IMG/VR virus record: IMGVR_UViG_3300030328_002978
Coordinates: 1 to 45,292 of that record
Direction: 5' to 3' (one strand)
DNA length: 45,292 bases
Origin: a virus
Made by a program: the position numbers and the translations under genes. Each line of letters starts with the position of its first letter. The first letter of the stretch is position 1. Shown in pieces: positions 5,468-45,292 of this stretch. A model generated the notes under the pieces. That model ran no database searches, had not been told where the DNA came from, and saw only the letters and a list, made by a program, of their open reading frames with translations.

Positions 5468-6556
5468 ATGGCATTTCAATTATTTGTAGACCCAACGGCT
5501 GGCGCGAGAAGCGCGGCGGATAACATTATGAAAGGTGCCGGTGCAATTGCGGACCGGCTCAAGGAAGAGAAGCAGAGAAGGAAGGACGAGAGTAAACTAT
5601 TCAAAGCCAATGTTACTAAAGCAGCCGCCTTGGGGTTGGGTAAAGGTGAATCGATGGCAGAAGCTGAAGCTGACCTTTCCGAGAATTACACGCCTGCAAC
5701 AATTCAAGGTCTACTTGAAGGCACCATGGCTGCAACACAACAGCAACAAAGGGAGGCAGCTATAGCGGCATCCAAAGCGCAAACAGACGCCACTATAAAA
5801 AGTACCGATTTCCGAACCGCGACAGAAGGTGTGCGTATGCAAGGTTTGCAATTAGGTGTTAAACAGCAGAAAGAGGGAATTAAAACAAGCGAGCTTAATC
5901 GCAAGCAAACTAAACAAGCTATAAAGCAGTCATCCCAGATGTTTGGCATAACTAAAAAGCAAGCCAAACGGAAAGTGAAACTGATCAACGAGCAGATTAA
6001 TTCCGCGATAGAAAACAGAAAGCAACAAGAACGTAATTTGGCTGTTATGGAGCAGAATGCTGCTGCTGCTGTTGGCAACGCTGAAGCCGCAAACATCAGA
6101 GCAAAAACTGCTGCCAAAGAGGAATCAAGAATTAGCAGGTTGAGTGCCTTGGATCCTTCCACGTTGAGTGAAGCCAAGTTGAAGGACGGCACAGTTATCC
6201 CCGGACTATATGTCCAACCTTCTACTAACAAGATTATCGAGCTTGGTGATGCTGCCAATGACGACCCTGTCACTGCGGAGCTTAACAGGTTGCGAGGTGC
6301 GTTGGTTAAACTTGAAGGGCAAGGCCAGCCCGGAGATGCAGACTACTTGCCTCCGCTTGCAGATGATCAGGAAGTAGATGTCGATGGTGACTTCGAGGAT
6401 TTGAGTCCAATAAGTTGGCCGATATTTTCGATAAAGAACGACACGGCTGGAAATGTTAGAAGACAGATAAGAGCAAAAATAGCTGAACTAGAAGGGAGCA
6501 GTGTTCCAAGGTTCAACCCAGATGCGCCTAGAGGTAGCAGAATAACATCACCATGA
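5468..6556 (+). CDS. internal virion (ejection) protein, gp15-like position, coiled coil
   Basis: This 362-residue protein starts 5 bases after the previous stop, behind the ribosome site AGGAGAATAACAAG. Residues 30-215 are almost entirely helical and charged, with Lys/Gln/Ala-rich heptads and repeated KQTK and KQAKRK segments, consistent with a long coiled coil. The C-terminal third is acidic with Pro and Asp (DDQEVDVDGDFEDLS). It sits between the gp14-like and giant gp16-like genes and overlaps the latter (ATGA at 6553). The role is inferred from order and composition, because no enzymatic motif is visible. Confidence 0.65.
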   Translation: MAFQLFVDPTAGARSAADNIMKGAGAIADRLKEEKQRRKDESKLFKANVTKAAALGLGKGESMAEAEADLSENYTPATIQGLLEGTMAATQQQQREAAIAASKAQTDATIKSTDFRTATEGVRMQGLQLGVKQQKEGIKTSELNRKQTKQAIKQSSQMFGITKKQAKRKVKLINEQINSAIENRKQQERNLAVMEQNAAAAVGNAEAANIRAKTAAKEESRISRLSALDPSTLSEAKLKDGTVIPGLYVQPSTNKIIELGDAANDDPVTAELNRLRGALVKLEGQGQPGDADYLPPLADDQEVDVDGDFEDLSPISWPIFSIKNDTAGNVRRQIRAKIAELEGSSVPRFNPDAPRGSRITSP

Positions 6557-15500: not shown

Positions 15501-15972
15501 GGGCAAGCGTCAGTTCGACGAGTTCAGCCTAATGATCGACCCGGTCCATCGACGCCGCACGGCGAGTCGGAAGATCGAGTACCAGCCCGGACCTTGGGAG
15601 GCCATCAGGCAGGGACATGCTGGCGGCACCGTAGATCGCATTCTGACGGCTTTAGGTGCGGTTGACCCTCTGCCTCCCGGTGGAAAGGTTGAAGACGTCT
15701 CAGCGAGGTCGTCAGGGGCAAGCACGGCCAAGTCCCGGTCCGTCAGGAGAGAGGCAAGGTCCAAGCTCGATACCAGTGACGCCGGTCAGTACTACGACCA
15801 CCACGGCAACCTCCGTCTGGGAGTAGTTCCGGAGGCTAATGTTCGGAAGCAGGAATTATGGCAGACAGGTGCCAAGGCGGCAGGGTTCAACCTGAAGTCT
15901 GTTGACCGTCGTCTGTACCTTGACCAGCTCGGTCCGCCTAAACGTAAGAAGAAAAAGATAACCGTCCGATGA
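6553..15972 (+). CDS. giant polyvalent ejection protein (3139 aa) with HExxH, ART-like and ASCH-like parts
   Basis: The N-terminus (IEVPGHGIIEFPDSMSD) is a small module seen at the start of many phage internal proteins. Residues 165-345 hold Gly/Ala-rich hydrophobic segments suited to membrane insertion. HEAIH at 631-635 is a zinc-metallopeptidase-type motif. Residues 1129-1320 (FKKWFG, then HGS at 1150) resemble the ART-PolyVal ADP-ribosyltransferase-like domain of phage polyvalent proteins. Residues about 1350-1440 (IVDGEKIIETR, then GERIRIIRTG) resemble an ASCH RNA-binding-like fold. Residues about 1525-1740 form another conserved-looking domain (FGRGFRELVGD, FGITSAQNAAEIN). The C-terminal third is helical with a hydrophobic patch near 2799-2826. 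Position after gp14- and gp15-like genes suggests a gp16-like channel protein that also delivers enzymes at infection. Enzymatic activity is inferred from motifs only. It is far longer than T7 gp16 (about 1300 residues). Confidence 0.8.
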   Translation: MNYKRIEVPGHGIIEFPDSMSDIEIEDAIKEEFFSAPQEIITKRDQSTVRKAEREIRKRQLAQQAEQMHQQDIQRYLGEGGTLEKSYYDIVGGFAHTFGEMLSGVDRMARKVLGDDAVNDIQTNPIWLQNPAGQFLAGAGAGKWIKGYSGAAKEVASHLEGNETVAKLAGVTGQVAAYVPLALTGPAAPFLTVGGAASQSFDSTYDQSFEAYKRMGFGDDEADRAAFKVSTGAGLITGTVTGMFNRYGGKLLGLGKGVERGLSAGVIAGALSEARRGTFKVMAQNVLREAGGEGTEEATDQLLQAALSYVSYRPELTLQEAMYEVLEAGVLGAYGGTIGGGPFSVREDLKYRKQRAEQAHAAEVIGRTKRSRDRIDGKQLETLIEGGVDAEGNKIEANPSLAPLKGEAGRVVVFSHQDIDAEGRPSDEKLGYMKIEEGADIDAAVAHYEMENPNAYFRGAFDLSKRDGSKHFDGGIEETAGDMDPDKMNIEERVETEVQALGDEVFDPVKLGKRRIRKTDLEQLYGGSVSETDNGYTVKLDNGMQLELRFDEKFFTPTTPEEIDAFERSIAAKAGIPVEQIQAMDPEARQAYRNQFTGAGANMQMVVDGSPVPGQYVQYFSRKADLQTAKHEAIHFLRQSGLITEEEFNTLAQRYAPDAKNEQDKEEAVAYAFEAYHAEAEARRQENRVGVFERIRNFFTKAEVVNEVSGIFNAIEKGEVAKREAPVGPQPVQDFMERPDYSVQESGTLEPVVIPLPEVPDFKVKGSTIPEMAIANSKFMESNKTKKDQREWDKVVSKYKKILAPDRRKLESIPDIDQVKDALNETQAKQVGDEGNLVVDQKLKKGDEVGMRQDINALTNNGVFVNAIHEGKPGSVGKIQGYTNISAVEGDVKVFIKEDKATEIAQGKRPKTWMATINGKYIPTREISLEEIDPEVGSDWTPVGIDPHRHQYAYDMRNPHIPIIGAEKAIQTNGVVWMKNAVTDERGTKYSVQFAGAEWPFQTGVQEDKEATSAAGPFAVMHDDLQAAIENYKDALDEINPIVLKRVSPIAFRNLINELVNAPVGRANRGMFEKMPSKKLLEVADIYLGRLRKKMRKAKGSIADTMQLTEDQKQAKKEFEQMGWEAPRFKKWFGNGTMVDGNGNPIVLNHGSETFGRITNRDLATAIQKENADAELSKRFSFRALDSNRVRGIFLSPDKKFSEAFGGPDNLTYQFVTNVKNTFDYKDQGHVKKLIDALKIEEKKHPKQTRTDYENLSEVLERGHWMDVENYAGLIDRLGFDSYLVNEMSDEVAGFDPDTPEYSVENIAVFDPSNIKILGEMSAGTFDASNYDVRYSVQDSIRGVNVNQGGTTFADAIVDGEKIIETRDSDSLRPVVGERIRIIRTGQPGEPAAYIGEVTVGDPKIYKNEEEFRADQDLHRVPPGNKFDIKEGKMKFGYPLQDPVRYEKEIIAPKLRGRVMTRPEQVPSFSVQLNESTVYIPTASDPHVLLPHGKVEKALHTLFNRSATPSSAALSKIPGAPKKRKDKNKLDRNVKPTSYAELKGMLEWAIENNAEGDWYDKFGRGFRELVGDANMWEATVLFGITSAQNAAEINYADTLTIMALARENDPVNDPAGFEMAVRNAVKPGGHGKLKIAGRQIDDVIKFYQTGIKEGGLKTTTYMQMTRDRGFNQFNPFSVQDVHMSRAFGYRYTDVDKDSGQVVDSAKFPSDQALRYGMYMTTKLANEYNMRPDQVQAMIWFYAKSNLSPKKDSGGKKAVGDGTFESAVKYSQPEIQVIEDMKANGKFDSGNSYNSSTLAAVRPSSVAKTKSDPWTNGNAFLEPLLETARKRAANMLVSTLPGVDRQFAFPTGTTYDMMVNHLYDVIEGITDGAGKIKFFERIGAPHEISPTSGTFDMREPSLEIKFPGMGLSFVDDLAPLMGDAFLQDAVITAQPKFSGVPFGIALSKPDQTPFTDAEIENVYGIVNPEKERYGLNFTMTGSGLDMKFLDGVYFGRQEEGKEYTSTDRDNFIKQLKPVAEAAGLDIKSFNQEGTYHDHSGYKEGLRTAWSKVRGSDRSYIQRAAVDELYKPVWTAYQNFFTKNKLQPVGQKPAPHLDVQFSVQQDAPLSPEVEARINSIEGAREIPKDQQPKFEPDMRGKWAAILGKPSAALGYVGSPELLRKKQELILEQAYQAKAVNTMIKDLQDQLFNQAYASVEGWKLPKWMRTGKWYKRLKQFQEDSLPIAAHLNATARDSASGEFTFTDFDMRAGMMPVAQFKKGDHKVGDNIEVANPLTGDIEFLTIGGFINAQGRVGYQLTRKMTADMQQELYNHYRKEYSDMIWLVEMFIDPNLKGMTKAVGGVKVPLFNRFSLESMMKETDKDFEGIAAYTPDVLATRTLSGLVDMVMNPTKVGRIPGRKYKTGKSRESGNVRDLLTGFNIRTFQQMNEQSNKAFAESVFDVGAMSIPESGIPKGYVKLSTGIDDLLAAVKAYRYFENPQEGEEGYSEAAARLSELDNPENYSKLLGEAYARKGKDYMIREDLVKLLTNKYSHSSQQNRMMRMLNWGIRNSTQAFLIHPYSYVVNSLTNDYFAVEAAFHRGFRGAANILSKETREMGKEDLDHSARILGGMMIHRMSGIRQLLGFKTQYDRVVEEILPDEVFENSTALADLKVSYDTGWVEYLKQGEIGAAGLQMIGYGNIDLRPKQRLAYAYLKSQAVRRAKRKGLKGKDLKDAVDSYMLNPPKEDRVEAVNQSQFEFLNYADSPQLLQDATKHDVSRLILQYPRFGYHYMHKQADRLKAVKDVFGRNMPAGKRADALAHLVTFATFTGGLGGMALHYALKAVAGDDDDDSAQYIGNYQIKYRDPITGEIKTKKIDYSMITSNRINLSKYFEALGIGDGDGEDFWWRVRNYPMIAMAGAAIQATEDTKKFGIQHGVATYLGMARDLSVDMTTIGSGLKVGSKALASLKSVDTGQPERPFFDPYGATVPFSFYLTEAAMSSFIPGKRQFDEFSLMIDPVHRRRTASRKIEYQPGPWEAIRQGHAGGTVDRILTALGAVDPLPPGGKVEDVSARSSGASTAKSRSVRREARSKLDTSDAGQYYDHHGNLRLGVVPEANVRKQELWQTGAKAAGFNLKSVDRRLYLDQLGPPKRKKKKITVR

Positions 15973-16426: not shown

Positions 16427-16503
16427 TGGTACACCGGGTGGGACTCGAACCCACAACTTACAGTTTAGAAGACTGTCGCTCTATCCAATTGAGCTACCGG
16501 TGC
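16427..16503 (-). tRNA. tRNA-Arg(UCU), CCA encoded
   Basis: A complete cloverleaf can be folded on the minus strand. The acceptor is GCACCGG with CCGGTGT (first pair G-T), the D arm is GCTC/GAGC, and the anticodon stem is ACAGT/ACTGT around CTTCTAA, giving anticodon TCT. The variable loop is AAGTT, the T arm is GTGGG/CCCAC with loop TTCGAGT, the discriminator is A, and CCA is encoded at 16429-16427. It decodes AGA. It stands next to the candidate attP and downstream of the integrase cassette on the same strand. It may be a phage-carried functional tRNA or the copy that restores a host tRNA gene after integration. A complete rather than 3'-partial gene leaves both open. Confidence 0.93.
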
Positions 16504-16508
16504 AAAAA

Positions 16509-16754
16509 TTAATCCGGGTACAGACGCTGCCAGCCTAGTGGCGAAATCTGGGTGATCAGAAACTCACGGTCCTGATTGCTGACGGACTTCATTGCGTCCT
16601 GAATCAGCTTGCCTTGCCGGTACTGAAACAACTCCTTCCCCGGCACCGCGACGGTCCACTGTTTTCCAGTGACCCGGCACGGCCCGGTGAAGTGGTAGAA
16701 GTGTCCCGCATCGGTGCGGGTTTCAGTGTAAGCCATGTTTTCGATAGCTGCCAT
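16509..16754 (-). CDS. hypothetical protein of integrase cassette (81 aa)
   Basis: It is the last protein gene of the minus-strand cassette, ending 6 bases before the tRNA. The start overlaps the preceding stop (TAATG). The sequence is soluble, with a strand-rich first half (HFYHFTGPCRVTGKQWTVAVP) and a helical second half (LFQYRQGKLIQDAMKSV) ending in FLITQISPLGW. Small phage proteins with this pattern exist, but I do not recognise a function. Confidence 0.65.
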   Translation of the reverse strand: MAAIENMAYTETRTDAGHFYHFTGPCRVTGKQWTVAVPGKELFQYRQGKLIQDAMKSVSNQDREFLITQISPLGWQRLYPD

Positions 16755-17125
16755 TATTCAGCCTCCACGGCGGACGACCAAGAGCCGTCCTTTTCAAGTG
16801 CCTTCAGGTAGACAGCCCCGGCGTTCGGAGTTCCGAAATCATCCAGTGGCTCGGTCAGGTCATACTCCCCGTCGATGTAGCCGACGTAGTACAGATTGCC
16901 ATCCGCATCGAGCATCTTGAACTTGGTCATGGTGCCGTTGAGGTCGGCAATATCACCGTCGTCAAAATTTTCATCCAGATCGATGCGAGCCTTCAATCGT
17001 TTTTCAAAAACCGGATCGATGTTGGATGGTCCAACCGTTCCAGCGTCAGACTCTGTTGGGTTGGGAGCAACGTGGTCATGGCTAATGATCCACCCGTATG
17101 AAGCATATTCATTTGGTTGCGACAT
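16754..17125 (-). CDS. acidic hypothetical protein of integrase cassette (123 aa)
   Basis: It is supported by a very good ribosome site on the minus strand (AAAGGAGGTGAATAATTACA before ATG). The protein is acidic (DENFDDGDIADLNG), starts with a segment that may form strands (YASYGWIISHDHV) and contains LYYVGYIDGEYD in the second half. There is no signal peptide or membrane segment. The function is unknown. Overlaps with both neighbours suggest one operon. Confidence 0.7.
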   Translation of the reverse strand: MSQPNEYASYGWIISHDHVAPNPTESDAGTVGPSNIDPVFEKRLKARIDLDENFDDGDIADLNGTMTKFKMLDADGNLYYVGYIDGEYDLTEPLDDFGTPNAGAVYLKALEKDGSWSSAVEAE

Positions 17126-18041: not shown

Positions 18042-19532
18042 TCAGGCTCCGAAGCACGTTACGAATACGTTGTCCGTTATGAGGTGAGCATAGTGCTGCT
18101 CGGTTGTGGTGATGCTCGAATGACCGAGCGCGATCTGGGCTTTGTGCAAGCTGCCAGTAGCCGTTACGATTTCGCAACCGTACAAGGCGCGAAGCTCATG
18201 TGACTGCTTTTTGAAATGATCCGCAGCATCGGTGCCGTAGATCAATTCATCGTTCCAGTACTCACGAATGTCCTCCTTACAACTCTTGGCAGACTTGTGC
18301 TGGTTGCGCCAGATCCGGTCATCACCGGAAGCACCGCGACGACGACGTTCTTCCTTCAGCCATTTAATAATGAATTCCGGAATCGTCACCTGACGCTCTT
18401 CCTTGCCCTTCGGACGCCAAGCCTTTTGAGCAAAGCCACGCTCTTTGTTTTTGCCAACTCCGCGCTTAAACGGGAACGACTGGCCATACTCGCCAGCAGT
18501 GACGAATTTAGGATCCTTGGACGATACGGCCACGACATAAACATCAACAATTTTTGGTTGCTGAGTTTGCGGATCAACAATCGTCTTGCGAGCTGCAAAG
18601 AACGAATTGAAGTTGAGGTGCATTAACTCGTCCAAACGCAACCCGGAGTTGCGGCAGATCTTGTACAGAGTCAATGTGTTCCACTTGACGTTAGTGGCGT
18701 CGTCCGTCTTGGACCAATCGCCCTCTTTCGATAGGCGGCTAACCTTGTCGTCGAGGTCGCGAATGACCTGAATTGGCGGCGGGTTGTAACCCTTCTTTTC
18801 GGAGCTACCTATGTTTTTCTCGGAACGGAAAACATTGATGGCGTTCAGGTCCAAGTTGGTTTTGGCAAAAGCCTGCTTGAGGAACCGGTCGCTGAACATC
18901 GACTGCGATTGCTTGCGGTTGGAGTTGTACGTCCGCAACTTGCGTTCGTAAGTCGGTCCGCAAGTCAACAATCCACCGTTGCCATCTGACAGGATCCGGT
19001 TGCGGTATTCTTCAAACACCTTGCTCTCGCCAGCCTCGTTAAGCTCGCCCAACTTGCTGCAACTAACGTGCGACAAGTCAGCTATGCCCTTGCGAGACTG
19101 TTGGTTTCCGTAGCCCAAAACGATCCGCAACGAAGCGGCGTAGTTACGAACCGACTTTGCGGTGATTGCCTCGTTCTTTTTTGTCTTGAGCTTGCCCTCT
19201 TCAGCAGCCTTCAGGAACGTGTCGATGATGGTCTGAATTGTGGCGAAACGAGTGTCCGAAAGAATTGCCTCTTCAGACTCCCACTGCACGTTAAGGTTGG
19301 CAGCTACCAGACGCGCACCCTCACGGGCAGCATCCTCAAGGTTAGGTCGCTTGGTTGACTTCAAAAAGCCGCCCTTACGAACCGAGTAAACTTTCGCCCC
19401 CGGTCGTTTCAGGAGCGAAAATTCAACCGTAGCTCCATTATGGTGCCGAGCCTTAACAGCAGTGCTACCACTGTTTTTGTGTAATTCAAATCGCGGTTTG
19501 CGATCTGCCGTCTGTTTAGTATCCATGGTCAT
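18042..19532 (-). CDS. int: tyrosine-family site-specific integrase
   Basis: This 496-residue protein has the tyrosine-recombinase active-site pattern: Arg299 in NSGLRLDELMHL, His445 and Arg448 in SHELRALYG, His471 in ALGHSSITTTEQHY and the nucleophile Tyr481. A Lys between the first Arg and the HxxR box is expected in the KEERQVTIP region (near 376-385). The N-terminal part (about 1-95) would be the arm-binding domain and about 100-270 the core-binding domain, with several unusual insertions making it longer than lambda Int (356 residues). It catalyses integration and, with an Xis, excision. The Xis-like gene at 21332 is a candidate partner. The start is ATG at 19532 or 19526; neither has a clear ribosome site. 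It diverges from the control region at 19533-19708. Confidence 0.93.
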   Translation of the reverse strand: MTMDTKQTADRKPRFELHKNSGSTAVKARHHNGATVEFSLLKRPGAKVYSVRKGGFLKSTKRPNLEDAAREGARLVAANLNVQWESEEAILSDTRFATIQTIIDTFLKAAEEGKLKTKKNEAITAKSVRNYAASLRIVLGYGNQQSRKGIADLSHVSCSKLGELNEAGESKVFEEYRNRILSDGNGGLLTCGPTYERKLRTYNSNRKQSQSMFSDRFLKQAFAKTNLDLNAINVFRSEKNIGSSEKKGYNPPPIQVIRDLDDKVSRLSKEGDWSKTDDATNVKWNTLTLYKICRNSGLRLDELMHLNFNSFFAARKTIVDPQTQQPKIVDVYVVAVSSKDPKFVTAGEYGQSFPFKRGVGKNKERGFAQKAWRPKGKEERQVTIPEFIIKWLKEERRRRGASGDDRIWRNQHKSAKSCKEDIREYWNDELIYGTDAADHFKKQSHELRALYGCEIVTATGSLHKAQIALGHSSITTTEQHYAHLITDNVFVTCFGA

Positions 19533-19592: not shown

Positions 19593-19686
19593 CGCGAACG
19601 GGGTCAAACTGCAACAGGTGCCTGTATCATGTCAACCCACTTTTTTATTTTTTTTTAAAAGAAAGTTGTTGCAAAGATTTCACCGT

Positions 19687-26760: not shown

Positions 26761-27214
26761 ACTCGACAACGGAGAGGTTCTGATGGCGACCATGCTTGGC
26801 TTGATGCGTAACACTGTTGCGCGTTCGGCAGGCATTAAGGATGGCAGGCGCGGACCGTTGGACCAGCAGTCCATGGACATGGACGGGATGGGTGCCGAGG
26901 TTGCGTTCTGTAAGTATTTCAATCTGTATCCGGACTTCTCGTTGTCACCTCAATCGCTGACGTTTGATTGCCTCACACAACTGGGCGGCAAGGTGGACGT
27001 CAAACAGACTCATTACCCTGACGGCAGGCTGTTGGTGTTGCCTGAAAAAAAGAAGGCAGAGACGACCCACTACGTTTTGGTGACAGGCAAGATTCCGAAA
27101 TTCAAGATCGTTGGATATGCCGATAAGGATCAAGTGTTTCAGGACAAGAACCTGAAGGAGATGCGGGGCAAAAAAGTCTACATGATAGACCAACCTGAAT
27201 TGCAAAAGTTTTGA
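26750..27214 (+). CDS. PD-(D/E)XK-like hypothetical nuclease (154 aa)
   Basis: GMGAEVAFCKYFNLYPD followed by FDCLTQLGGKVDVKQTHY fits a nuclease core, with an acidic Glu in the first helix, Asp in KVDVK and the catalytic Lys two residues on. LPEKKKAETTHYVLVTG gives the next strand. Phages carry uncharacterised proteins of this type. It overlaps the previous gene by 11 bases and the terminase by TTGA. Substrate and role are unknown; a packaging-linked nuclease is possible. Confidence 0.6.
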   Translation: MEIELDNGEVLMATMLGLMRNTVARSAGIKDGRRGPLDQQSMDMDGMGAEVAFCKYFNLYPDFSLSPQSLTFDCLTQLGGKVDVKQTHYPDGRLLVLPEKKKAETTHYVLVTGKIPKFKIVGYADKDQVFQDKNLKEMRGKKVYMIDQPELQKF

Positions 27215-28818
27215 ACTGGGAGAAGTACGCATACGAACCGCATCCGGTGTATCGAATGATAACACGGGAGGATGCTAAACTTGTCTTGCGTCAGGATGGT
27301 GGTGAAAAAAAATTGCGCGAAGCCTTGCAGGCTAGAGGCACCAAGATAGGGCTTGAAAGGACAGATCCCTATAACCACGGCTACGAGCCGTTTCATTGGA
27401 AGGATGCAGAGGAGCTGGTAGAGAAGAACGATGCCGTTCTTATTTCCGGGGGCAACCGTTCCGGTAAGACAGAGTTTTGTGCAAAGTTTTGCATCAAGAA
27501 ACTGTTGGAAAAACCGGACACAAGAATAGTCGCTTTTCATACTACGCACCAAAGCTCACTCCAAACGCAACAGCCGGTTTTGTATAAGTATCTGCCTGAA
27601 GAATTTAAGGGCAGAAAGATCAGGTCAACGGTTGCGAATATATCCTACACTCAGAAGAATGGTTTTACAGAATCGACGTTCATCATGCCGAACCGTAGCC
27701 AGCTATGGTGTATGCATTACTCGCAGGATCCGAGGACGGTCGAGGGTTTGGAGCTGGACTATTGCTGGGCTGACGAGCTGATTCCGAAGGCACTGCTCGA
27801 CACGATCCGGTTCCGTTTGGTTACCCGTTCAGGTAAGTTGATTTTATCCTTCACGCCGGTCGAGGGCATGACTCCTGTCGTTAAGGATTTTGTTTCCGGG
27901 GGAGAGGTAACGGAGTGGAGTGATAGCGAGCTGTTGCCTGCCATCAACATACCGGCAGGCCCGAAGGGCAAGATGCCCTACACCATGCGATGCCATAAGG
28001 AGAAGACGGCAGCGATTTGGTTCTTCACAAAGTTCAATCCATATAACCCGTACAAGGAGCTGGTCAAGCGACTCGATGGCGCACACTCAAGCGACGTAAA
28101 GATCCGCGCATACGGTTGGGCTGACAGTTCGGTTGGCAATGCGTTTCCGAGGTTTGGTGACGGTCATATAATCGATCCAAAAGACATCCCTACGGGTGGA
28201 CAGAATTTCATGGTGACGGACCCAGCGGGTTCGCGTAACTGGTTTTTTCTTTGGGCTAGGGCTGTTGGTGGCAGGATATATTTTTACCGGGAGTGGCCTG
28301 ACTACAGCATGGGCGAATGGAGCTTGCCCGGAGTGAAGCCTGACGGACAACCCGGACCAGCCCAGCGAGCTGGTGGAGGTGCCAACAGTATATCTGAATA
28401 CAAGCGTCTCATTCTGGATCTGGAACAGGGCGAACCCATCTTTCAACGCCTGATAGATCCGCGAGCCGGGAGGGCAAAAAGCATGGACGGCAGGGAGATA
28501 CTGGACGAGCTAAAGCTGGGAGAGAATGGGCTTTGGTTTGATCAGGCTTCAGGTGCCAAGATTGAGGAAGGCGTCACGTTGATAAATGACATGCTGTACT
28601 ACGATCCGCACAAGCCAATGTTCGAGGACAACAAACCAAAAATGTTTGTCAGCAGTGACTGTAAAAATTTGATCTATTCGCTGCGCGAATGGACGGGGGC
28701 GGACAAGGAGCATGGTGCGAGCAAGGATCCGATTGACTGTTGCCGTTACGTTATACAAGAAGAGAATTTACTGGTGACGACCGACATGGTCGGCGTCAGC
28801 GGGGGAGGAGCTTACTAA
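27211..28818 (+). CDS. terL: terminase large subunit (packaging ATPase-nuclease)
   Basis: This 535-residue protein has a Walker A motif, SGGNRSGKT (79-87), a Walker B motif with catalytic Glu (LDYCWADE, 182-189), and a coupling segment (LILSFTPVEGM). The RNase H-like nuclease domain starts near MVTDPAG (Asp337) and continues with RLIDPRAG (Asp416) and DPIDC (Asp506, Asp509). It drives DNA into the procapsid through the portal and cuts the concatemer. The start is TTG at 27211 in a TTGA overlap with the previous stop; ATG 27256 is an alternative. A TAATG junction leads to the next gene. Confidence 0.93.
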   Translation: MNWEKYAYEPHPVYRMITREDAKLVLRQDGGEKKLREALQARGTKIGLERTDPYNHGYEPFHWKDAEELVEKNDAVLISGGNRSGKTEFCAKFCIKKLLEKPDTRIVAFHTTHQSSLQTQQPVLYKYLPEEFKGRKIRSTVANISYTQKNGFTESTFIMPNRSQLWCMHYSQDPRTVEGLELDYCWADELIPKALLDTIRFRLVTRSGKLILSFTPVEGMTPVVKDFVSGGEVTEWSDSELLPAINIPAGPKGKMPYTMRCHKEKTAAIWFFTKFNPYNPYKELVKRLDGAHSSDVKIRAYGWADSSVGNAFPRFGDGHIIDPKDIPTGGQNFMVTDPAGSRNWFFLWARAVGGRIYFYREWPDYSMGEWSLPGVKPDGQPGPAQRAGGGANSISEYKRLILDLEQGEPIFQRLIDPRAGRAKSMDGREILDELKLGENGLWFDQASGAKIEEGVTLINDMLYYDPHKPMFEDNKPKMFVSSDCKNLIYSLREWTGADKEHGASKDPIDCCRYVIQEENLLVTTDMVGVSGGGAY

Positions 28819-29003
28819 TGGAAACATTTCCAAAGTTATTATCGTTTAAGGATGCGTCAGAGTTTTCGGGCCTGACCATCAAGGAGCTTCAGTATCTAGC
28901 CGATGCTGGAAAGTTAAGGACCGTTGTTCCGGTCCACAGAAAAAGAAAATTTATAAAGCAGCAACTAGCTGACTACATGAAAGAATTACTATGTCAAAAC
29001 TAG
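28818..29003 (+). CDS. small helix-turn-helix protein between terminase and portal (61 aa)
   Basis: ATG 28818 follows the ribosome site GGGGGAGGAG and overlaps the terminase stop (TAATG). LSFKDASEFSGLTIKELQYL and AGKLRTVVPVHRKRKFI give a MerR/Xis-type helix-turn-helix and wing, with a basic end. It might regulate late genes or serve as a second excisionase-like factor. Its position inside the packaging operon is odd for a repressor. Confidence 0.6.
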   Translation: METFPKLLSFKDASEFSGLTIKELQYLADAGKLRTVVPVHRKRKFIKQQLADYMKELLCQN

Positions 29004-31054
29004 ACGTTAAACAAATCGCGTCGGAGTACAGTCGAGCCGGGGGTTTCAACAATACCTACACAAGTTGGTTCCGGGCTGACAGTATTCGATTTTGCCGATG
29101 GGACGGTCAGACCGACGATGGCCGTAAGCACCAATACGAGTATTCCAAGAAAAAGGTTTTTCCATGGGACGGGGCAAGTGATGTCCGGGTCCGATTGGCT
29201 GACGCTATATGCAGTGAAAACTCGGACATAATGACGACCGCATTCCAGCGCGGAATACTTCGTGCCAGCCCGACTGAATCGGGTGACGGATCGCAATCCA
29301 CGTTGGTAACCACCCTGCTCAAATACTATAAGGAGAATAAGCTGATGAACGAGCTTCGGCATGAAGCTCATCTGCTCGCCAACTATGGCCAGCAATACGG
29401 AACCGGCGTTCTACAGATAGGTTGGGAGAAGGAGGAAACCAAGGCCAACAAGCCTGTCACCATGGAGGACGTTGTTGCGTTTTCGCAGGAAGCGGATCCG
29501 CAATCTGCCGAGGCTCAACTTCCCCAGATGATTATGGATCCGGAGCAGGAAGATGCTGCCGTCGAAATTGTAGCCGCACTGATGGAAGTCAGACGCAACA
29601 CGGCTCGTCGCGGAATTAAGGAGTTGCGAAATAATGGAGTAACTGAAATCCCGGTTGCCGAAATTACCAAGAACACTCCGAACATAACTGCACTCCGTTT
29701 GGACGATGACTTCTTTGTTCCGCCAGAGACAATTGATTTGCAGGATGCGCGTTATTGTTTCCGCCGGGTATGGATGACCGAGATGCAATTGCGTCAGGGT
29801 GAGTTTGACGAGAAATGGGTCGAGCGTGTTATAGCAACCAAGAGCCAGCCCGGTATGGTGTACGAGGATACATATACTCAGTTCACAAACGACACTGGCC
29901 AACAGGAAGGATTGTATGAAATTGTATATGCTTATTATAGGGAGCTTGATGATGATGGTATGCCGGGAATTCACTGTTGTGTTTTTACGCCGCATATCAC
30001 CGACGCAAGCGGGAAAAAGGACATGCTTGACTACATGTCTGGAGTCTATCCGTTCGTGGCTTATAGACGGGAATCGGTAGCTCGCAAATTCCGCGACAGT
30101 CGAGGCGTTCCGGAAATATGCATGACATGGCAGGACGAGATTAAAACCCAGCGAGACATGTTGTCGGACCGGGCCAGCCTGATTATTAATCCGCCTATAG
30201 TTCACGCCGCGAGGTCAGGATCCAATTACGAATTCAAACCCGGCACCGCGATTGCGGAAATGCGTCAGGGCGAAGTTCGTTATCTGGATCCGCCCCGGTC
30301 CAACCCGGCAGAGAGTTTGCAGATCATCCAGTACGTCGAGCGTCAGGCTAACGAGTTTTTCGGTCGCATGGGTGAAGGCATAGATCCGAACACAAGCGCG
30401 ATGCGTAGGCAGTCCATGGTGGACACTTATATGTCCTGCTGGTCCGAAGCCTTTACGATGATGTTCAAGCTGATTCAGGAATTCGTAAGTGACGAGGAGC
30501 TTGCTCGAATTGCTGGCAAGGAAATGCAACTGCCAAAGTCTTCAGCCGAGATTCAAGGCAACTACGATTTCCGCACCGTGTTCGATGTCCGCGAGCTGGA
30601 TCAGGATTATATGTCCGCCAAGTTGCAGGCCATGAGTCAGTTCGTTCTTCCGGAGGATACGGCAGGCGTGATCGACCGTGCAGCCTATACCAAGTTCAAG
30701 GCGACACTGATCGACCCGGTACTTGCTGACATGGTTGTGCAGGACAAGACCGGAGCAACTCAACAAGCGTTTGATAAGGTTAATTCTGATATTGGGTTCA
30801 TGGCACTGGGCAATGAGCCGCAATATACCGAGAACGATCCCGCTGCCGAAATGAAGTTGCAGTTCATGCAACAGATCCTCGGCAACAATCCGAAGTATCA
30901 GGAGCTGATGCAGGAGGGCGGTGACGAACGGTTCACGGCACTAGTCGAGAACTACGCAAAGAATCTTCAGCATTCCGTACAGCAAAGACAGAATGCGGAA
31001 GTAGGGAGAGTCGGAGTCCAGCCTGTTGGTTCCGGGCAGGAGTCTGGCTATTAA
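28991..31054 (+). CDS. portal protein
   Basis: This 687-residue protein begins with SKLDVKQIASEYSRAGGFNN and continues as a long mixed domain. Its order (terminase, portal, scaffold, capsid), length and the segments VFPWDGASDVRV and YPFVAYRRESVARKFRDSRG match large podovirus portals of the P22/SU10 type. The C-terminus has Gln-rich helices (barrel-like) from about residue 600. It forms the ring through which DNA enters and the connector attaches. It overlaps the HTH gene by 13 bases. Confidence 0.85.
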   Translation: MSKLDVKQIASEYSRAGGFNNTYTSWFRADSIRFCRWDGQTDDGRKHQYEYSKKKVFPWDGASDVRVRLADAICSENSDIMTTAFQRGILRASPTESGDGSQSTLVTTLLKYYKENKLMNELRHEAHLLANYGQQYGTGVLQIGWEKEETKANKPVTMEDVVAFSQEADPQSAEAQLPQMIMDPEQEDAAVEIVAALMEVRRNTARRGIKELRNNGVTEIPVAEITKNTPNITALRLDDDFFVPPETIDLQDARYCFRRVWMTEMQLRQGEFDEKWVERVIATKSQPGMVYEDTYTQFTNDTGQQEGLYEIVYAYYRELDDDGMPGIHCCVFTPHITDASGKKDMLDYMSGVYPFVAYRRESVARKFRDSRGVPEICMTWQDEIKTQRDMLSDRASLIINPPIVHAARSGSNYEFKPGTAIAEMRQGEVRYLDPPRSNPAESLQIIQYVERQANEFFGRMGEGIDPNTSAMRRQSMVDTYMSCWSEAFTMMFKLIQEFVSDEELARIAGKEMQLPKSSAEIQGNYDFRTVFDVRELDQDYMSAKLQAMSQFVLPEDTAGVIDRAAYTKFKATLIDPVLADMVVQDKTGATQQAFDKVNSDIGFMALGNEPQYTENDPAAEMKLQFMQQILGNNPKYQELMQEGGDERFTALVENYAKNLQHSVQQRQNAEVGRVGVQPVGSGQESGY

Positions 31055-31057
31055 ACC

Positions 31058-31315
31058 ATGAGTGCAAAACTAGATACTAAACAACTGGTACATGCGCTGA
31101 AGAGCCTGACTGATGACAATGTTGTCTACATTGCCGTCAATCAGTTGTTCGAGGAATATATCGACAACGGTATAAACTCGGCAATCGCTTCACGCATTGG
31201 AGACGAGGACAGGCACTGGAGTGCTGGATATGTATACGCATTGAAACAACTCCAAGAGCATCTGGACAAGCTCCGCAAATCAACAGTTAACGAGACTACT
31301 GGCGAAGTAGTTTAA
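31058..31315 (+). CDS. small hypothetical protein after portal (85 aa)
   Basis: It starts 3 bases after the portal stop. The protein is helical (LVHALKSLTDDNVVYIAVNQL and YALKQLQEHLDKLRK) without motifs. It is the last plus-strand gene before the minus-strand insertion at 31317-31843. It may be a portal- or packaging-associated factor, by position only. Confidence 0.65.
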   Translation: MSAKLDTKQLVHALKSLTDDNVVYIAVNQLFEEYIDNGINSAIASRIGDEDRHWSAGYVYALKQLQEHLDKLRKSTVNETTGEVV

Positions 31316-31316
31316 A

Positions 31317-31349
31317 TTAAAAAACCCCGCGCACCGAAAGGTGCCGGGG
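31317..31349 (-). terminator. terminator of the minus-strand two-gene unit
   Basis: On the minus strand CCCCGGCACC pairs with GGTGCGCGGGG over TTTC (one bulge) and is followed by a T run (31324-31319). It ends the unit started at 31840. It could also act partly on the plus strand after the gene ending at 31315, but no T run follows there. Confidence 0.85.
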
Positions 31350-31373
31350 CTGTTGGTTTAGTATCCGTCTAGC

Positions 31374-31643
31374 TTACTTCCAATCTCCGGGGTTACCGGA
31401 ATAGTTGTGTCCAATTACCTCAAGAACTGGACACCATCCGAACATTGGCATTTGCACTGCCTCGCAACTGTACCGGACTATAACTATATCCTCCTTGCCT
31501 TTGCGTTTCTGCTTTCGGAATTGTCGAAACGCTTCGGCGGGGGAATGTCCGCACTTGATGTACTCGAAATTAGGATAGCCCTTTTTAGGCACTTCCCGCT
31601 TCCACTGAACATCAAACCGATCAGGTAGCTTTTTATTCTTCAT
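31374..31643 (-). CDS. moron protein of unknown function (89 aa)
   Basis: A near-ideal ribosome site (AAAGGAGGTGAAAAAAA) precedes ATG 31643. The protein starts basic (KNKKLPDRFDVQWKREVPKK), has a helix with SPAEAFRQFRKQKRKGK and then strands (DIVIVRYSCEAVQMPMFGW) with three Cys in all. It is strongly basic overall and may bind nucleic acid. It is antisense to the late operon and co-transcribed with the zinc-ribbon gene, whose end it overlaps by 11 bases. No family is recognised. The gene is well supported by its signals. Confidence 0.75.
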   Translation of the reverse strand: MKNKKLPDRFDVQWKREVPKKGYPNFEYIKCGHSPAEAFRQFRKQKRKGKEDIVIVRYSCEAVQMPMFGWCPVLEVIGHNYSGNPGDWK

Positions 31644-31785
31644 TTTTTTTCACCTCCTTTCGCTCACATGATTTACAAGTCATGTGTTTAGTTTTGTTTT
31701 TGCTTGTTAATGCCTTTCCGCATTCCAAGCAAACTTGGTTCGCGGAAAACACATTGCCCATCATTCGATTTAATAATGTACTCAT
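31633..31785 (-). CDS. small zinc-ribbon protein (50 aa)
   Basis: From ATG 31785 the frame reads to TAA 31633. Residues 19-40 hold two CxxC knuckles, CLECGKALTSK and MTCKSCERK, 17 residues apart, a classic zinc-ribbon pair. The C-terminus is charged (KEVKKNEE) and its last codons contain the start of the 89-residue gene. A zinc ribbon of this size typically binds nucleic acid or a host polymerase subunit. The promoter at 31835-31843 lies about 40 bases upstream. Confidence 0.7.
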   Translation of the reverse strand: MSTLLNRMMGNVFSANQVCLECGKALTSKNKTKHMTCKSCERKEVKKNEE

Positions 31786-31834
31786 GTTACTTTTTTAGTT
31801 TTCAAAGAACGCCTCAAGATCGAAGCGAACGACT

Positions 31835-31843
31835 ATTATATCA
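31835..31843 (-). promoter_or_regulatory. extended -10 promoter for the minus-strand unit
   Basis: On the minus strand TGA immediately precedes TATAAT, giving TGnTATAAT, an extended -10. No good -35 is present at 16-18 bases, which extended -10 promoters can do without. Transcription would start near 31827 and leave a leader of about 40 bases before ATG 31785. Confidence 0.75.
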
Positions 31844-31924
31844 TATTGAGTTTTTGAAATTCTCGAAATCGGGGGTTATTCGGGAAAAAATGTTTCTGTT
31901 TTCTAGGAAATAAAAAATTAAAAA

Positions 31925-32122
31925 AATCGGTTGACACGGTTTTTTGAGTTTCGGTCAACACCATTATGTCCAACTAAATAACTCTTATTATTCATATTAT
32001 ACTTATCATCCCAATACCCAGGTAATTGTTATAACTACACGCTTGATTCGGCGTTATAACTCGGACGGGTTCTTCGCACCTTACGCGATGTCTACCTTAC
32101 TTGCAGGGTATTAATAATTAGC
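31925..32122 (+). promoter_or_regulatory. non-coding leader before the capsid operon with repeated palindromes
   Basis: No gene of convincing size is seen. It contains the palindrome GTTATAAC twice, 25 bases apart (32028-32035 and 32053-32060, both followed by T), an inverted pair GTTGAC/GTCAAC (31930-31935 and 31954-31959), and TTGACA at 31931 without a well-spaced -10. The gene at 32123 has no clear ribosome site (attagc before ATG). This is the likely control region for scaffold and capsid expression. Confidence 0.5.
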
Positions 32123-33152: not shown

Positions 33153-34421
33153 ATGTCGAACAAATCGTCTTTATATAGTTACACACAAAACGATGAAAGC
33201 GGATCTAATGCCGCTATATTTGGTCCAGCACCGGGCGGTTCTAACCGCGACTTACTCAACGCAATCACATTGGTAGACGCCAAGGAGTGTCCGCTGATGG
33301 CAATGATTCCGAAAGCTGGGGGAGTTACTAACCTCAACTTTGAATGGCCTGTCGATAAGGAATTAGCGGCAGAGGATAATGCGGCAATTGATGGACGCGA
33401 TCTACAGCACGGGTTCACCTCTGTTAATGTTGACGGAGATAACGAATCTGACTTCGGCCATGTACTCGATGAGTACGCCATAATGAACAACCGTGTTCAG
33501 TGGTTCCGCCGTGCTGCATTGGTTTCCAAACTGACCGAGTCCGCTACTAACTTGGCTGGCGTTGCTAACCAAAGAGCGTATGCAGTTCGTAAGCAGTTGC
33601 TTGCCTTAAAGCGCGACATGGAAGTCCGCCTTTGTGCTGATCATATTCCAAAAACAGGTGCTGCGAAAAATGGTTGGTATAATGCTGGCGCGGTTACCGG
33701 TAGTTCAACGGCAGGAAACAAGACAGCGTCTCTTGGTGCGTTTATTGATGACCATGATACTGCTGGAATTGTTCCTGCTGGTTACACAACCCCGGCTGCT
33801 AGTGTGTTTGATTCGGATGCAACCGATAACGACGCAGCTACGGTTACTAACTCTTCCGATGCTGCTCATGTTCTTACCACTACATCTACTATTACAGAAG
33901 ATGAGGTTAACGGAGTTCTGCAAAGTATCTACGAGCAAACTGGTAAGATTAACACCAAGACATTGCTTTGTGGTCCTAACTTTAAAAAGAGGTTTAAGGA
34001 CTTCACGGCTGTTACGGTCGGATCTAACGCCGCCGCTACAGTGGCTCGAAGCTACAATGCTCCTCTCGCTGACAAGAAGGTCATCTCGACCGTCGATGTT
34101 TACGAGGGCGACTTTGGTACGCTTCAGTTAGTGCCGACTTTGTGGAATGCGTTTAACTTCCCAGTTAGCTCGGAAGGTGAAGCGGCAGGCAATAAAGCTG
34201 TTAGCTGGTCTGGTTCTGGTGCCACTGGTGCTGGTGCTAACCCTAACCTGTCTTACGGTTACGTTCTGGACATGGATCTTTTGGAGCTTCGCTTCCATCA
34301 GTTGCCACAGGTTCAACCGCTGCCTAACCAAGGTGCTGGTGAGCGTTTCGCAGTCGATGCAATTGCTGGCTTGTGCGTTAAGAACCCGCTTGGGCTTGGT
34401 GCGTTTAAGCTGATCAAATAA
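33153..34421 (+). CDS. major capsid protein, SU10-type (DUF5309-like)
   Basis: This 422-residue protein has the marks of the SU10-like HK97-fold capsid family. The N-terminus has DLLNAITLVDAKECPLMAMI followed by FEWPVDKELAAEDNAAIDG. The helix MNNRVQWFRRAALVSKLTES and ALKRDMEVRLCAD come next. Later VNGVLQSIYEQTGKINTKTL and LCGPNFKKRFKDF are followed by DFGTLQLVPT. Residues 195-240 hold an Ala/Thr/Asp-rich insertion (VFDSDATDNDAATVTN). It follows the scaffold after 13 bases and its stop overlaps the next start. It forms the icosahedral shell. Confidence 0.9.
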   Translation: MSNKSSLYSYTQNDESGSNAAIFGPAPGGSNRDLLNAITLVDAKECPLMAMIPKAGGVTNLNFEWPVDKELAAEDNAAIDGRDLQHGFTSVNVDGDNESDFGHVLDEYAIMNNRVQWFRRAALVSKLTESATNLAGVANQRAYAVRKQLLALKRDMEVRLCADHIPKTGAAKNGWYNAGAVTGSSTAGNKTASLGAFIDDHDTAGIVPAGYTTPAASVFDSDATDNDAATVTNSSDAAHVLTTTSTITEDEVNGVLQSIYEQTGKINTKTLLCGPNFKKRFKDFTAVTVGSNAAATVARSYNAPLADKKVISTVDVYEGDFGTLQLVPTLWNAFNFPVSSEGEAAGNKAVSWSGSGATGAGANPNLSYGYVLDMDLLELRFHQLPQVQPLPNQGAGERFAVDAIAGLCVKNPLGLGAFKLIK

Positions 34422-42024: not shown

Positions 42025-45000
42025 ATGGCTAACACCATACAGATAAAGAGGCGAACTTCTGCTGGTACACCTAGTGGGTTAGCTGCTGGGGAGTTAGCGG
42101 TCAATCTTTCTGATAACAAGTTGTATGTCGGCAACGCTGCCGAGGACGATGTAATCCATCTTAACCCCTCTGCCTCCACCAGTTACCTCCCCCTTGCTGG
42201 CGGTGAGCTAACAGGAGCAGTAGACTCCCATGTAAATGACGTTGGTGTTATATTAAAGTCCGGCAACACTTCAGCCACAGGAACACCTGACCAGTTCTTT
42301 CTCAAGCACAACTACGGAAATGTAGACATTGGCAACAGCAGGGGTTATGTGAATTTTTCTGCTGGCACATTACAGTATGGGGGTAACGAGGTATTCACCG
42401 TAGCTGGCGGCACACTCACGGGCAACCTGACAATAAATTCTGACAATGCTACCCTGCGACTAAACGACAGCACCAGCGGTTCCAATTTTAACATTTTCAG
42501 CAACGGCAGCGAGTTGCGAATGGCGCAGCACAACGCCACGTTTCCTAGTGCATATTTAAATCTAACGACTGGAGGCAACCTTGGGCTGGGGGTAACTGGT
42601 GCTTCAGAAAGGTTGGAGGTTTCTGGTAAAGCTATTTTTACTGATGCAGTTTCAGTGGGGCAAAGTTCTGCTCCTTCTGCCAATATCAAGTTTGAGGTTT
42701 ACAACACTAGCGGAAACTACAACGCAGTATTTAAGAATAGCGGCCAAGCCACAGTAGAGGTTAAAGGCGGCGAAAATTCTTCAGCTAGGATTCGTTTGAT
42801 TCCAGATGAGGGTGACGATGTAAATAACAAAGATCATTTCCAACTAATACATGAAACCTCTAACAATTTTGAGCTTCAAAGATTTAACACCACTTCTGGT
42901 TGGGTATGGAAATGGAAACTGGATTCAAGTAACAACGTCCACCAGACAGGCGACCTGACAGTCAGCGGCACTACCAGCACGTTCGGAACAAATGGTTCAA
43001 TTATCTTAAAAGACCCTTATGCTGCCAACGATGCTGCTCTTGAAATAAAAAGAGATGCTGGAGCTAACAGTTCAATTCTCTTACACGGCGAGGGCGACTC
43101 ATATATAGCTAATGGAATTACTGGTGGCTTGGCAGTAGGGTCAACGTCCCCAAGTGGCTTCAAATTTCAAGTAGCTGGAACGGCTAAAATAACAAGCGAC
43201 CTGACAGTCGGTGGCAACTTGGGTATTAACGGGAGTTCAGCAACTGACCCATTAAGTGTCAAGGGGGAGTCAGCAAATGATTATGTAGCACGGTTTTATC
43301 GTTCGGATAACGGCAACACTCTGGTAGATGTTTTTCAAGACTCCAGCAATCATGGTCATTTGTTTGTTCGTAATTCGGCTGGACTTACAAAAGTAAAATT
43401 ATTTTCAGACGGGGTTTCTTATTTTAGAGGCGGGAACCTAGAGGTAGACACTCGCACGGACAGCAATAATGCTTCTGCTGAATTTACGGTCAGGAGTGAC
43501 GTTCATGCGAGCGTAGTAGCTGACAGAAATGCTAATACAAACTCGGCCAATTTCATGCTGCGAACTGCTGGCGTTAATAAGTGGCGAATGTCACTTGGCA
43601 TGGCTGGATCGGGCAATGAGACGTTTAGCATATACGATGAGGCAAACACGGCAAATGTGTTAACCATAGCTCAAGGGGGAGCAACAACACTTACGGGCAA
43701 CCTGACAGTCGGTGGCGATGCTACAATTGGCGGTGCTGCAACTAAATTAAAAACATACAGCGACATAACCTACTCTGGAATATACAACGGAAGTTCTTTA
43801 TTTAGTGACGAGGCGATTTATTTTGGAGCGGGAAGTACCTATTTTAAAAACGATGGAGCAACTTCATTAACTATTTCTGCGGCTGGAACTGTTACCGTTG
43901 ACAACAACCTGACCGTAGTTGGGTCAGCATCGCTGTCTACTGACGGTAGTTGGGTGAACATTGGAGGCGCAAATGTATTTCGCAAGAGCAACAATTTTCT
44001 TTATTTTGGCAACGCAAATTTCAGCAGCGGATTATACACTAGAATAAATGTCCGATTAGAAAGCGGTTATAATATTAGCCCTTATTCCTCTAGCCCATCT
44101 TCTTCTACAACTTTAGGAACTTCTGCAAATAGGTGGCCGACTATTTATGGGGGGGCTGGAGATTTTAGGTCTGCTTCTGGGTCAGTCGGTTTAACTGTAG
44201 GCAATATCTCTGGAGATACTAGACTGCAAATTACAGCAACAGAGAACTCGGATGTTACTTTTAATGTCGGTGACACATCTGGCATGGGTACTAGCAGATC
44301 AATCATTTTTGAAACTGGTAGTAGTCAACGAATGCGTATAGATGGAGGCAATGTTGGCATAAACTGCACAGCTAGCACAAAGTTAGACGTTTATCACGCT
44401 ACCGACAGCCAAATAACAGTCTCATCTGATAGCGATTCCTCTGGCGATAGTTCATTAGCTTTAATTAAAAGAGATGCAAACTCAGCATTTGGATCGGCAA
44501 ACACATACGGGTTTCAATGGAGGTATGATGGAGGCGATAATAAGTTATATCTTACCTCTGGCAATCAAACGTCTATAGCAAACAGACTCACAGTAGAGCG
44601 TGACACGGGAAATGTTGGCATTGGGGTTACTGCCCCCAGCGCAAAGCTAGAAATATATTCTACGAACGTAAACGAAGGCGTAGACATAGTCGGCCAGATA
44701 AGTAGTGCTAACCAAAACTCCGACAGTCCAAAGTTGCGGTTCCAAGGGTACGCCCAAACAAACGGCCCGTTTATCCAAGCACTTAACTCATCTGCCTATG
44801 GCAAAAAGCGATTAGGTTTCTTTGTTAAGCGATCTGCAAATGACTACACAACCGCACCTACTGAAAGTTTAAGCATATACAATAGTGGCTATGTAAATGT
44901 CCATGAGCGGTTAGGAATTGGGTGCGATCCCAGCGCAAGGCTCCACATTAACAATGGCTCATCTGCTGGTGCTGGTGCTGTATATCCGCTCAGACTGTCT

Positions 45001-45292
45001 GGTGGCGATCAATTAAGCACCGCTGGTGACGCTACTGGTATTCAATTCGTTCAACGGAACCAGTACAACGATTACGGTGGGTATATAAGGTTAACGAACA
45101 CTCAAAGCAACCCTAACTATTTAAACCCAAGGCTGGAATTTGGCGTTCAGAATACAGATACAAATGTATTAGGTAGCGTCTCCACCAAAATGGTGCTTGA
45201 TGGCAATGGTCGGTGTGGCATCGGAACGGTAGCACCAGACACCAACTCAAAACTCCATGTAGAAGGTTCAGTTCTGATTGACGCTTGCAACG
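42025..45292 (+). CDS. long tail fibre, N-terminal part (3' end outside the window)
   Basis: From ATG 42025, directly after the upstream stop, the frame is open to the window edge (1089 codons). The N-terminus IQIKRRTSAGTPSGLAAGEL then NLSDNKLYVGN is the same attachment module as in the preceding gene. The body repeats units of the form GNLTVGG or GNVGIGxTxPxxKLxV dozens of times, and the last 86 bases duplicate 778-863. It is therefore very probably the 5' part of the gene ending at 2740, giving a protein of at least about 2000 residues. Confidence 0.85.
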   Translation, partial: MANTIQIKRRTSAGTPSGLAAGELAVNLSDNKLYVGNAAEDDVIHLNPSASTSYLPLAGGELTGAVDSHVNDVGVILKSGNTSATGTPDQFFLKHNYGNVDIGNSRGYVNFSAGTLQYGGNEVFTVAGGTLTGNLTINSDNATLRLNDSTSGSNFNIFSNGSELRMAQHNATFPSAYLNLTTGGNLGLGVTGASERLEVSGKAIFTDAVSVGQSSAPSANIKFEVYNTSGNYNAVFKNSGQATVEVKGGENSSARIRLIPDEGDDVNNKDHFQLIHETSNNFELQRFNTTSGWVWKWKLDSSNNVHQTGDLTVSGTTSTFGTNGSIILKDPYAANDAALEIKRDAGANSSILLHGEGDSYIANGITGGLAVGSTSPSGFKFQVAGTAKITSDLTVGGNLGINGSSATDPLSVKGESANDYVARFYRSDNGNTLVDVFQDSSNHGHLFVRNSAGLTKVKLFSDGVSYFRGGNLEVDTRTDSNNASAEFTVRSDVHASVVADRNANTNSANFMLRTAGVNKWRMSLGMAGSGNETFSIYDEANTANVLTIAQGGATTLTGNLTVGGDATIGGAATKLKTYSDITYSGIYNGSSLFSDEAIYFGAGSTYFKNDGATSLTISAAGTVTVDNNLTVVGSASLSTDGSWVNIGGANVFRKSNNFLYFGNANFSSGLYTRINVRLESGYNISPYSSSPSSSTTLGTSANRWPTIYGGAGDFRSASGSVGLTVGNISGDTRLQITATENSDVTFNVGDTSGMGTSRSIIFETGSSQRMRIDGGNVGINCTASTKLDVYHATDSQITVSSDSDSSGDSSLALIKRDANSAFGSANTYGFQWRYDGGDNKLYLTSGNQTSIANRLTVERDTGNVGIGVTAPSAKLEIYSTNVNEGVDIVGQISSANQNSDSPKLRFQGYAQTNGPFIQALNSSAYGKKRLGFFVKRSANDYTTAPTESLSIYNSGYVNVHERLGIGCDPSARLHINNGSSAGAGAVYPLRLSGGDQLSTAGDATGIQFVQRNQYNDYGGYIRLTNTQSNPNYLNPRLEFGVQNTDTNVLGSVSTKMVLDGNGRCGIGTVAPDTNSKLHVEGSVLIDACN
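45207..45292 (+). repeat. fibre-gene direct repeat B, copy 2 (cut by window edge)
   Basis: This is the second copy of the repeat at 778-863. The window ends inside it, so the right edge also breaks at a repeat. Continuation past this point cannot be read here. Confidence 0.92.

Follow-up and report, generated by a model that had tools for sequence, protein, structure and literature searches.

The usual view of morons is that of isolated insertions, each of which brings a promoter of its own. The closest described case to the locus reported here is pid of Salmonella phage P22, a moron consisting of an 86-residue antisense ORFan in the late region with its own 3' terminator, at a site where related phages carry either no insert or another insert (PMC3573128). 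Small loci of high turnover located between two conserved genes are also known from the P2 and P4 hotspots, with the P2 locus adjoining the portal gene (PMC9122126). Accessory loci of Salmonella prophages, for example STMMW_20121, are independently transcribed antisense to lytic genes, as determined by RNA-seq (PMC7067206). Lastly, the SAS/ESAS of cluster K mycobacteriophages represent a conserved upstream element found before different gene families and present in many copies per genome (PMC3203893).

The cassette analyzed here is part of a 45,292-base record of an uncultured virus, from now on referred to as the window. Like pid, it is small, lies antisense in the late region, has its own terminator and occupies a site that is variable in relatives. 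It differs from pid in that a long promoter module is common to unrelated cargos in phages whose portals are down to ~35% identical, and in that the cargo itself has moved between these phages. As in P2 and P4, the slot is a small site of high turnover flanked by two conserved phage genes; however, the cargo proteins are only 50-225 residues long, contain no recognised defence domain, are encoded antisense and share a dedicated promoter. The antisense orientation relative to lytic genes is shared with STMMW_20121-type loci, whose transcription was established by RNA-seq whereas the cassette is known from sequence alone. With SAS/ESAS it has in common a conserved upstream element preceding varied gene families, the difference being that the cassette module is present once per genome, in one slot, and combines promoter architecture with a terminator. 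In the literature on comparable loci, coverage of which was incomplete and leaves novelty unproven, no shared promoter module with exchangeable antisense cargo across distant phages was found.

Genome setting and extent of the cassette

The gene order around the cassette is as follows.

27211-28818, terminase large subunit gene
28991-31054, SU10-like portal gene
31058-31315, plus strand, p85, a small late gene following the portal gene and forming the left border of the slot
31316-31963, minus strand, whole cassette, corresponding by alignment to the insert relative to the empty slot of relative L013
32123-33139, plus strand, scaffold gene forming the right border of the slot, with homologues at the same place in relatives
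33153-34421, SU10-like major capsid gene directly following the scaffold gene

The scaffold gene is named based on its position and acidic composition, with no profile naming it. Homologues of p85, or a small gene at the same place, can be found in relatives down to ~35% portal identity. The extent of the cassette was determined by alignment with L007, L008, L009, L010, L011, L013, L014 and L015, which places its beginning at the p85 stop codon, and no plus-strand gene of note is located within 31316-32122. The original prediction had positioned a self-contained two-gene moron at 31317-31843 between the portal and scaffold genes. A cassette is indeed found there, but its end was set too short, with the promoter module reaching ~31950 and the whole insert spanning 31316-31963. 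Similarly, the border on the scaffold side holds, but p85 intervenes on the portal side, making this a p85/scaffold slot. A plus-strand terminator-like hairpin is present in the slot of L013, and the scaffold gene is preceded by conserved non-coding sequence that includes a structured leader. The slot is probably the boundary between two late transcription units, which would explain why inserts are tolerated at this position.

A small RNA hairpin with a near-invariant CUUG(C/A) loop is located shortly upstream of the scaffold start codon (32085-32110, plus strand) and is also found in L044, L047, L048, L051-L057, L068-L073 and L084-L100. Its stems covary (UACC/GGUA, AGCC/GGCU, GGCC/GGCC, GGUC/GACC and AAGG/CCUU), it is mostly not accompanied by a ribosome site, and 16 of 18 scaffold leaders contain a stem of at least 4, compared with 3.8 leaders on average in shuffles. 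Translational control of the scaffold gene by this hairpin is possible. Further downstream, the major capsid proteins of L013 (7001-8260) and the window (33153-34421) are only 77% identical, compared with 98% for the scaffold and 99% for the portal, an abrupt drop that marks a recombination boundary at the capsid gene. With respect to the contig itself, a 1089-codon open frame (42025-45292, plus strand) runs off its end while its start opens inside another long frame (5-2740), and the contig may represent a circularly permuted or cut genome.

Cassette architecture

The order of elements on the minus strand is extended -10, hairpin, p50, p89 and a strong hairpin followed by TTTTTT.

31894-31950, minus strand, distal promoter element with GTGTCAA, T-tracts and TTTCCTAGAAAAC, at a fixed distance from the -10
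31845-31834, minus strand, extended -10 TATGATATAATA, with TG at 31843-31842 and TATAAT at 31840-31835
31810-31827, minus strand, leader hairpin of the cassette mRNA, a hairpin following the -10 in most carriers
31785-31633, minus strand, p50, an optional zinc-ribbon-like protein of 50 residues, CX2C-X14-CX2C, CLEC...CKSC
31643-31374, minus strand, p89, a basic protein of 89 residues, pI 9.6
~31352-31319, minus strand, intrinsic terminator, hairpin and TTTTTT, about -22 kcal/mol

The extended -10 sequence proposed for the minus strand is present, and TATGNTATAATR occurs a single time in 45,292 bases, with 0 occurrences expected from shuffles. Extended -10 promoters are read by the host RNA polymerase and its main sigma factor and do not need phage factors. 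We infer that the host polymerase would read the cassette promoter independently of the phage late programme. That the cassette has its own promoter is supported by sequence and by conservation, the extended -10 and distal element being present in 22 distinct forms. The terminator with a T run was likewise found as proposed, and a strong hairpin plus T-run is characteristic of the window and most carriers, with an automatic scan detecting this arrangement after the cargo in 12 of 18 carriers and the cargo terminator of L100 being recognised by eye. The terminator would keep the transcript from entering p85 and the portal gene. An Rfam search of the slot returned no match.

A hairpin is located directly behind the -10 in 17 of 18 distinct leaders, its sequence differing between lineages, while L011 has a leader without one. 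These hairpins show a mean z of -2.7 versus -0.9 in control stretches taken 100 nt downstream of them; that of the window is weaker (z -1.4). A terminator-like match at 31827-31810 is better read as this leader hairpin. It should be noted that the leader hairpin of L008, L014 and L015 covers the ribosome site, with CUCCUUU pairing with the AAAGGAG of p89, and that translation of p89 could be switchable in these genomes.

Slot content in relatives

A capsid search of IMG/VR identified twelve relatives and a portal-alignment scan added more. L013 is 99.1% identical to the window in its portal, 100% in p85 and 97.9% in its scaffold protein; its slot is empty, spanning only 210 bp and containing neither the cassette genes nor the promoter. 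Both p50 and p89 are encoded in L007, while L008, L014 and L015 encode p89 without p50, directly behind the same promoter. Other cargo consists of a 122-residue acidic protein (L011, L016 and L018), two genes encoding 116- and 123-residue proteins (L009) and an 83-residue basic protein together with a 225-residue papain-like protein (L010). In all of these genomes (L007-L011, L014-L016 and L018) the cargo is antisense to the late genes. Two portal-scan relatives carry other inserts, specifically, an antisense ankyrin-repeat gene in L044 (55% portal identity) and a plus-strand cytosine DNA methyltransferase gene in L045, both without the shared promoter, and other portal-scan relatives have empty slots. 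Among deposited phages the nearest is C75C1 (27% portal identity), in which the gene order is retained but the slot is a 55-bp gap with no cassette.

Turnover between these two conserved genes is high, the slot being empty in some relatives and otherwise filled by one of six or more cargo families or by other p85/scaffold inserts. The interpretation as a moron is upheld by clean presence and absence (empty in L013, the same in L007), by unrelated antisense cargo elsewhere and by the cassette's own promoter and terminator; the two genes are not syntenic late genes in all relatives. The idea of a fixed gene pair had to be abandoned, with p89 found alone in three contigs and p50 confined to the window and L007. 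Toxin-antitoxin function was discarded as an overall explanation, since only one gene is present in many cassettes. Overall, we consider it likely that the insert is a moron in the sense of a portable cargo cassette, placed where two late transcription units meet.

The architecture of a small high-turnover hotspot between conserved genes is the same as in P2 and P4 (PMC9122126) and raises the alternative that the cargo consists of superinfection-exclusion or anti-phage defence genes proper. The methyltransferase of L045, which may be protective, and the ankyrin protein of L044, both found in the slot of near relatives, are in line with this. However, these two cases do not have the shared promoter, seven cargo proteins had no convincing PADLOC match and cassette cargo is much smaller than typical defence systems, which makes dedicated defence cargo possible yet rather doubtful. 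We lean somewhat towards the broader reading in which the portable cassettes would carry swappable host-modifying or competitor-excluding/anti-defence proteins.

Recurrence of the promoter module

The promoter layout comprises a T-tract, TTTCCTA, a fixed gap and TGnTATAAT. In right-side alignments of the slot, every relative with cargo has conserved the promoter together with ~110 bases upstream of it, all of which L013 lacks. L052 and L053 (34-35% portal identity to the window) have the same module in front of unrelated cargo. A first scan of the IMG/VR collection with the pattern TTCCTANNAA-N44-46-AAA-N7-ATGNTATAAT identified 17 contigs, all belonging to the window's phage family and all with the match in the p85/scaffold slot, a result that is partly selected for because the pattern was built from family members. 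A relaxed scan yielded 43 contigs, 25 with and 18 without phage-family genes. The gap from TTTCCTANNAA to TGNTATAAT is exactly 56 nt in all 25 phage-family contigs, while gaps of 54-58 are found in the other 18, which look like chance matches. Including the window and L053, the latter being missed by the relaxed pattern, the number of carriers rises to 27 and that of distinct promoter sequences to 22. Every one of these carriers is a metagenome contig and several are near-duplicates, and as the scan patterns were derived from family members, these counts describe this family rather than all phages.

Portals of carriers are as little as 34-38% identical, yet the module always keeps its spacing and is always antisense to the late genes. 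The cassette is located in the p85/scaffold slot in 25 of 27 carriers; in L085 and L093 it lies ~5-6 kb upstream of the terminase gene, again on the strand opposite the late genes. A search of 22 complete records found the -10 word in one copy in 10/10 cassette carriers and in none of the 12 others. The promoter block was not found in deposited phages. Judged by these alignments and scans, the promoter is one long rigid module common to unrelated cargos.

The invariant spacing between the -10 and the distal TTTCCTA/T-tract element hints that an activator binds, or the DNA bends, at the latter, and we hypothesize that this would assist the polymerase. The combination of TGTCAACC and a T-tract occurs in the window only at 31919-31936 (minus strand) and at 19630-19660 (plus strand), the latter being the intergenic region between the integrase gene and a small gene of ribbon-helix-helix-like type. 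In relatives, the integrase gene is preceded by comparable, though looser, T-rich blocks. A bolder and so far tentative proposal, which we would sooner doubt than adopt, is that divergent phages use a universal socket for interchangeable small-protein genes in antisense orientation, the socket being a dedicated single-copy promoter (TTTCCTANNAA, 56 nt, extended -10) that a specific activator of host or phage origin would recognise. Since the distal element shares TGTCAACC and the T-tract with the integrase/regulator intergenic region, this socket may be switched together with lysogeny.

Exchange of cargo between phages

Cargo identity exceeds backbone identity in several pairs of carriers: 94% over 65 residues for L010/L100 (portal 43%), 83% for L011/L085 (portal 43%), 68% for L011/L073 (portal 39%) and 46% for L010/L068 (portal 38%). 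For this reason, we conclude that cassettes or their genes have been exchanged between distant phages with the socket being retained.

The last of these pairs encodes papain/C39-like cargo (L010 4700-5377, minus strand; L068 2849-3334, minus strand), in phages with 38% identical portals, and the Cys-His-Asp motif CGPS..GNHWMVE..DN is conserved. The match to Pfam Tox-PL-2 is weak (E 0.02). A structural model reached a pLDDT of 63 with staphopain as the top, non-significant structure match, and a papain fold is possible.

Cargo proteins of the window

The p89 gene overlaps p50 by 11 nt and is preceded by a perfect ribosome site, GAAAGGAGGTGA, placed inside the end of p50, in agreement with the basic 89-residue protein and overlapping ribosome site originally described. 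Homologues that are 65-66% identical occupy the same place in L008, L014 and L015. Compared with these three, pN is 0.21-0.22 and pS ~0.78 (saturated), with 50-53 of ~87 base changes falling on codon position 3. Based on these substitution patterns, p89 is a real gene under purifying selection at the protein level.

Antisense orientation, a strong-looking promoter and a leader hairpin would also be expected of an element acting on the late operon by antisense transcription or RNA, with the open reading frames being secondary. Given the protein-level selection on p89, a terminator ending the transcript before p85 and the portal gene, and cargo that varies while promoter and terminator stay, we regard this as highly improbable.

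No family had been recognised for p89 in the original prediction, and searches of Pfam, PHROGs, PADLOC and NCBIfam gave no match either, so that no profile library names it or links it to defence. It is also absent from deposited phages and plasmids. An AlphaFold2 model based on four sequences was unusable (mean pLDDT 38). A profile built from the same number of sequences gave eL30 ribosomal proteins as best PDB matches (E 0.03, residues 30-83) while the reversed profile, used as a control, returned nothing up to E 10, and p89 could accordingly be imagined as a trimmed L7Ae/eL30-type RNA-binding protein. This is very unlikely, however, as the match is not significant, Pfam L7Ae is not matched, p89 ends before the last third of the L7Ae/eL30 fold and the unusable model offers no support. 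A strand-helix-strand likeness between p89 and the 123-residue cargo protein of L009 was suspected by eye, but hhalign shows no relation.

The zinc-ribbon character proposed for p50 stands with respect to its two CxxC knuckles (C19, C22, C37 and C40), though not as a family match above curated cut-offs, with the best Pfam hit at 22.2 bits (cut-off 25.8) and the best NCBIfam hit at 17.2 (cut-off 61); weak sub-threshold matches extend to several zinc-ribbon families. p50 is the weaker gene of the two because a Shine-Dalgarno sequence is missing and the gene recurs solely in L007, a near-identical genome (one amino-acid change). Within the portable cassette, p89 would be the effector, a small basic protein that perhaps binds nucleic acid, and p50 an optional zinc-ribbon accessory.

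Carrier lifestyle and host

The integrase gene of the window is the following feature.

18042-19532, minus strand, tyrosine integrase (Pfam Phage_integrase 2e-10, PHROG integrase 4e-13)

Its presence supports a temperate lifestyle and agrees with the interpretation as a moron. An integrase is found in the window and in six cassette-bearing relatives (five long relatives and G030), and from gene content a temperate lifestyle is probable for the carrier group. In G029, a 44-kb carrier, neither a tyrosine nor a serine integrase was detected; lysogeny may therefore not be the setting in every carrier. Production of the small proteins would be possible in lysogens or right at the onset of infection.

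G029 also bears on a different explanation, early-lytic host takeover, where the host polymerase reads the promoter after DNA entry, the proteins redirect the host and lysogeny is incidental. Besides this carrier, the small and often basic cargo proteins and a sigma70-like promoter that needs no phage factor are compatible with such a role. Clean loss in L013 and unrelated cargo swaps suggest dispensability, however, the slot is located in the late region away from early genes, and an integrase is present in the five long-enough relatives of the window's group. Takeover early in the lytic cycle is conceivable but on this evidence less than probable.

The contigs are presumably of marine origin. 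Searches of GTDB genomes for a host, using capsid alignment and the 3' half of a tRNA-Arg, were both empty. This tRNA-Arg(TCT) is complete (16427-16503, minus strand); its CCA is encoded, a terminator-like hairpin follows it, and it shares the strand of the integrase gene. GTDB genomes contain no exact match to its 3' half, and it is possible that the tRNA represents an attachment site or a phage tRNA. Adjoining the integrase region, a 123-residue acidic protein (16754-17125, minus strand; phrog_12268, E 2.5e-13) is encoded behind a strong GAAAGGAGGTGA ribosome site like that of the cassette genes. A giant polyvalent-protein-like ORF of 3139 residues (6553-15972, plus strand) shows weak ART-PolyVal and ASCH matches.

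Implications

In the phages described here, one long promoter module with invariant spacing is retained while the genes behind it are exchanged. This raises the question of what recognises the distal TTTCCTA element, and of a possible tie between cargo expression and lysogeny. The promoter pattern further provides a sequence handle that may be used to harvest small phage effectors from metagenomes independently of protein similarity, as illustrated by the at least six cargo families found with one pattern.
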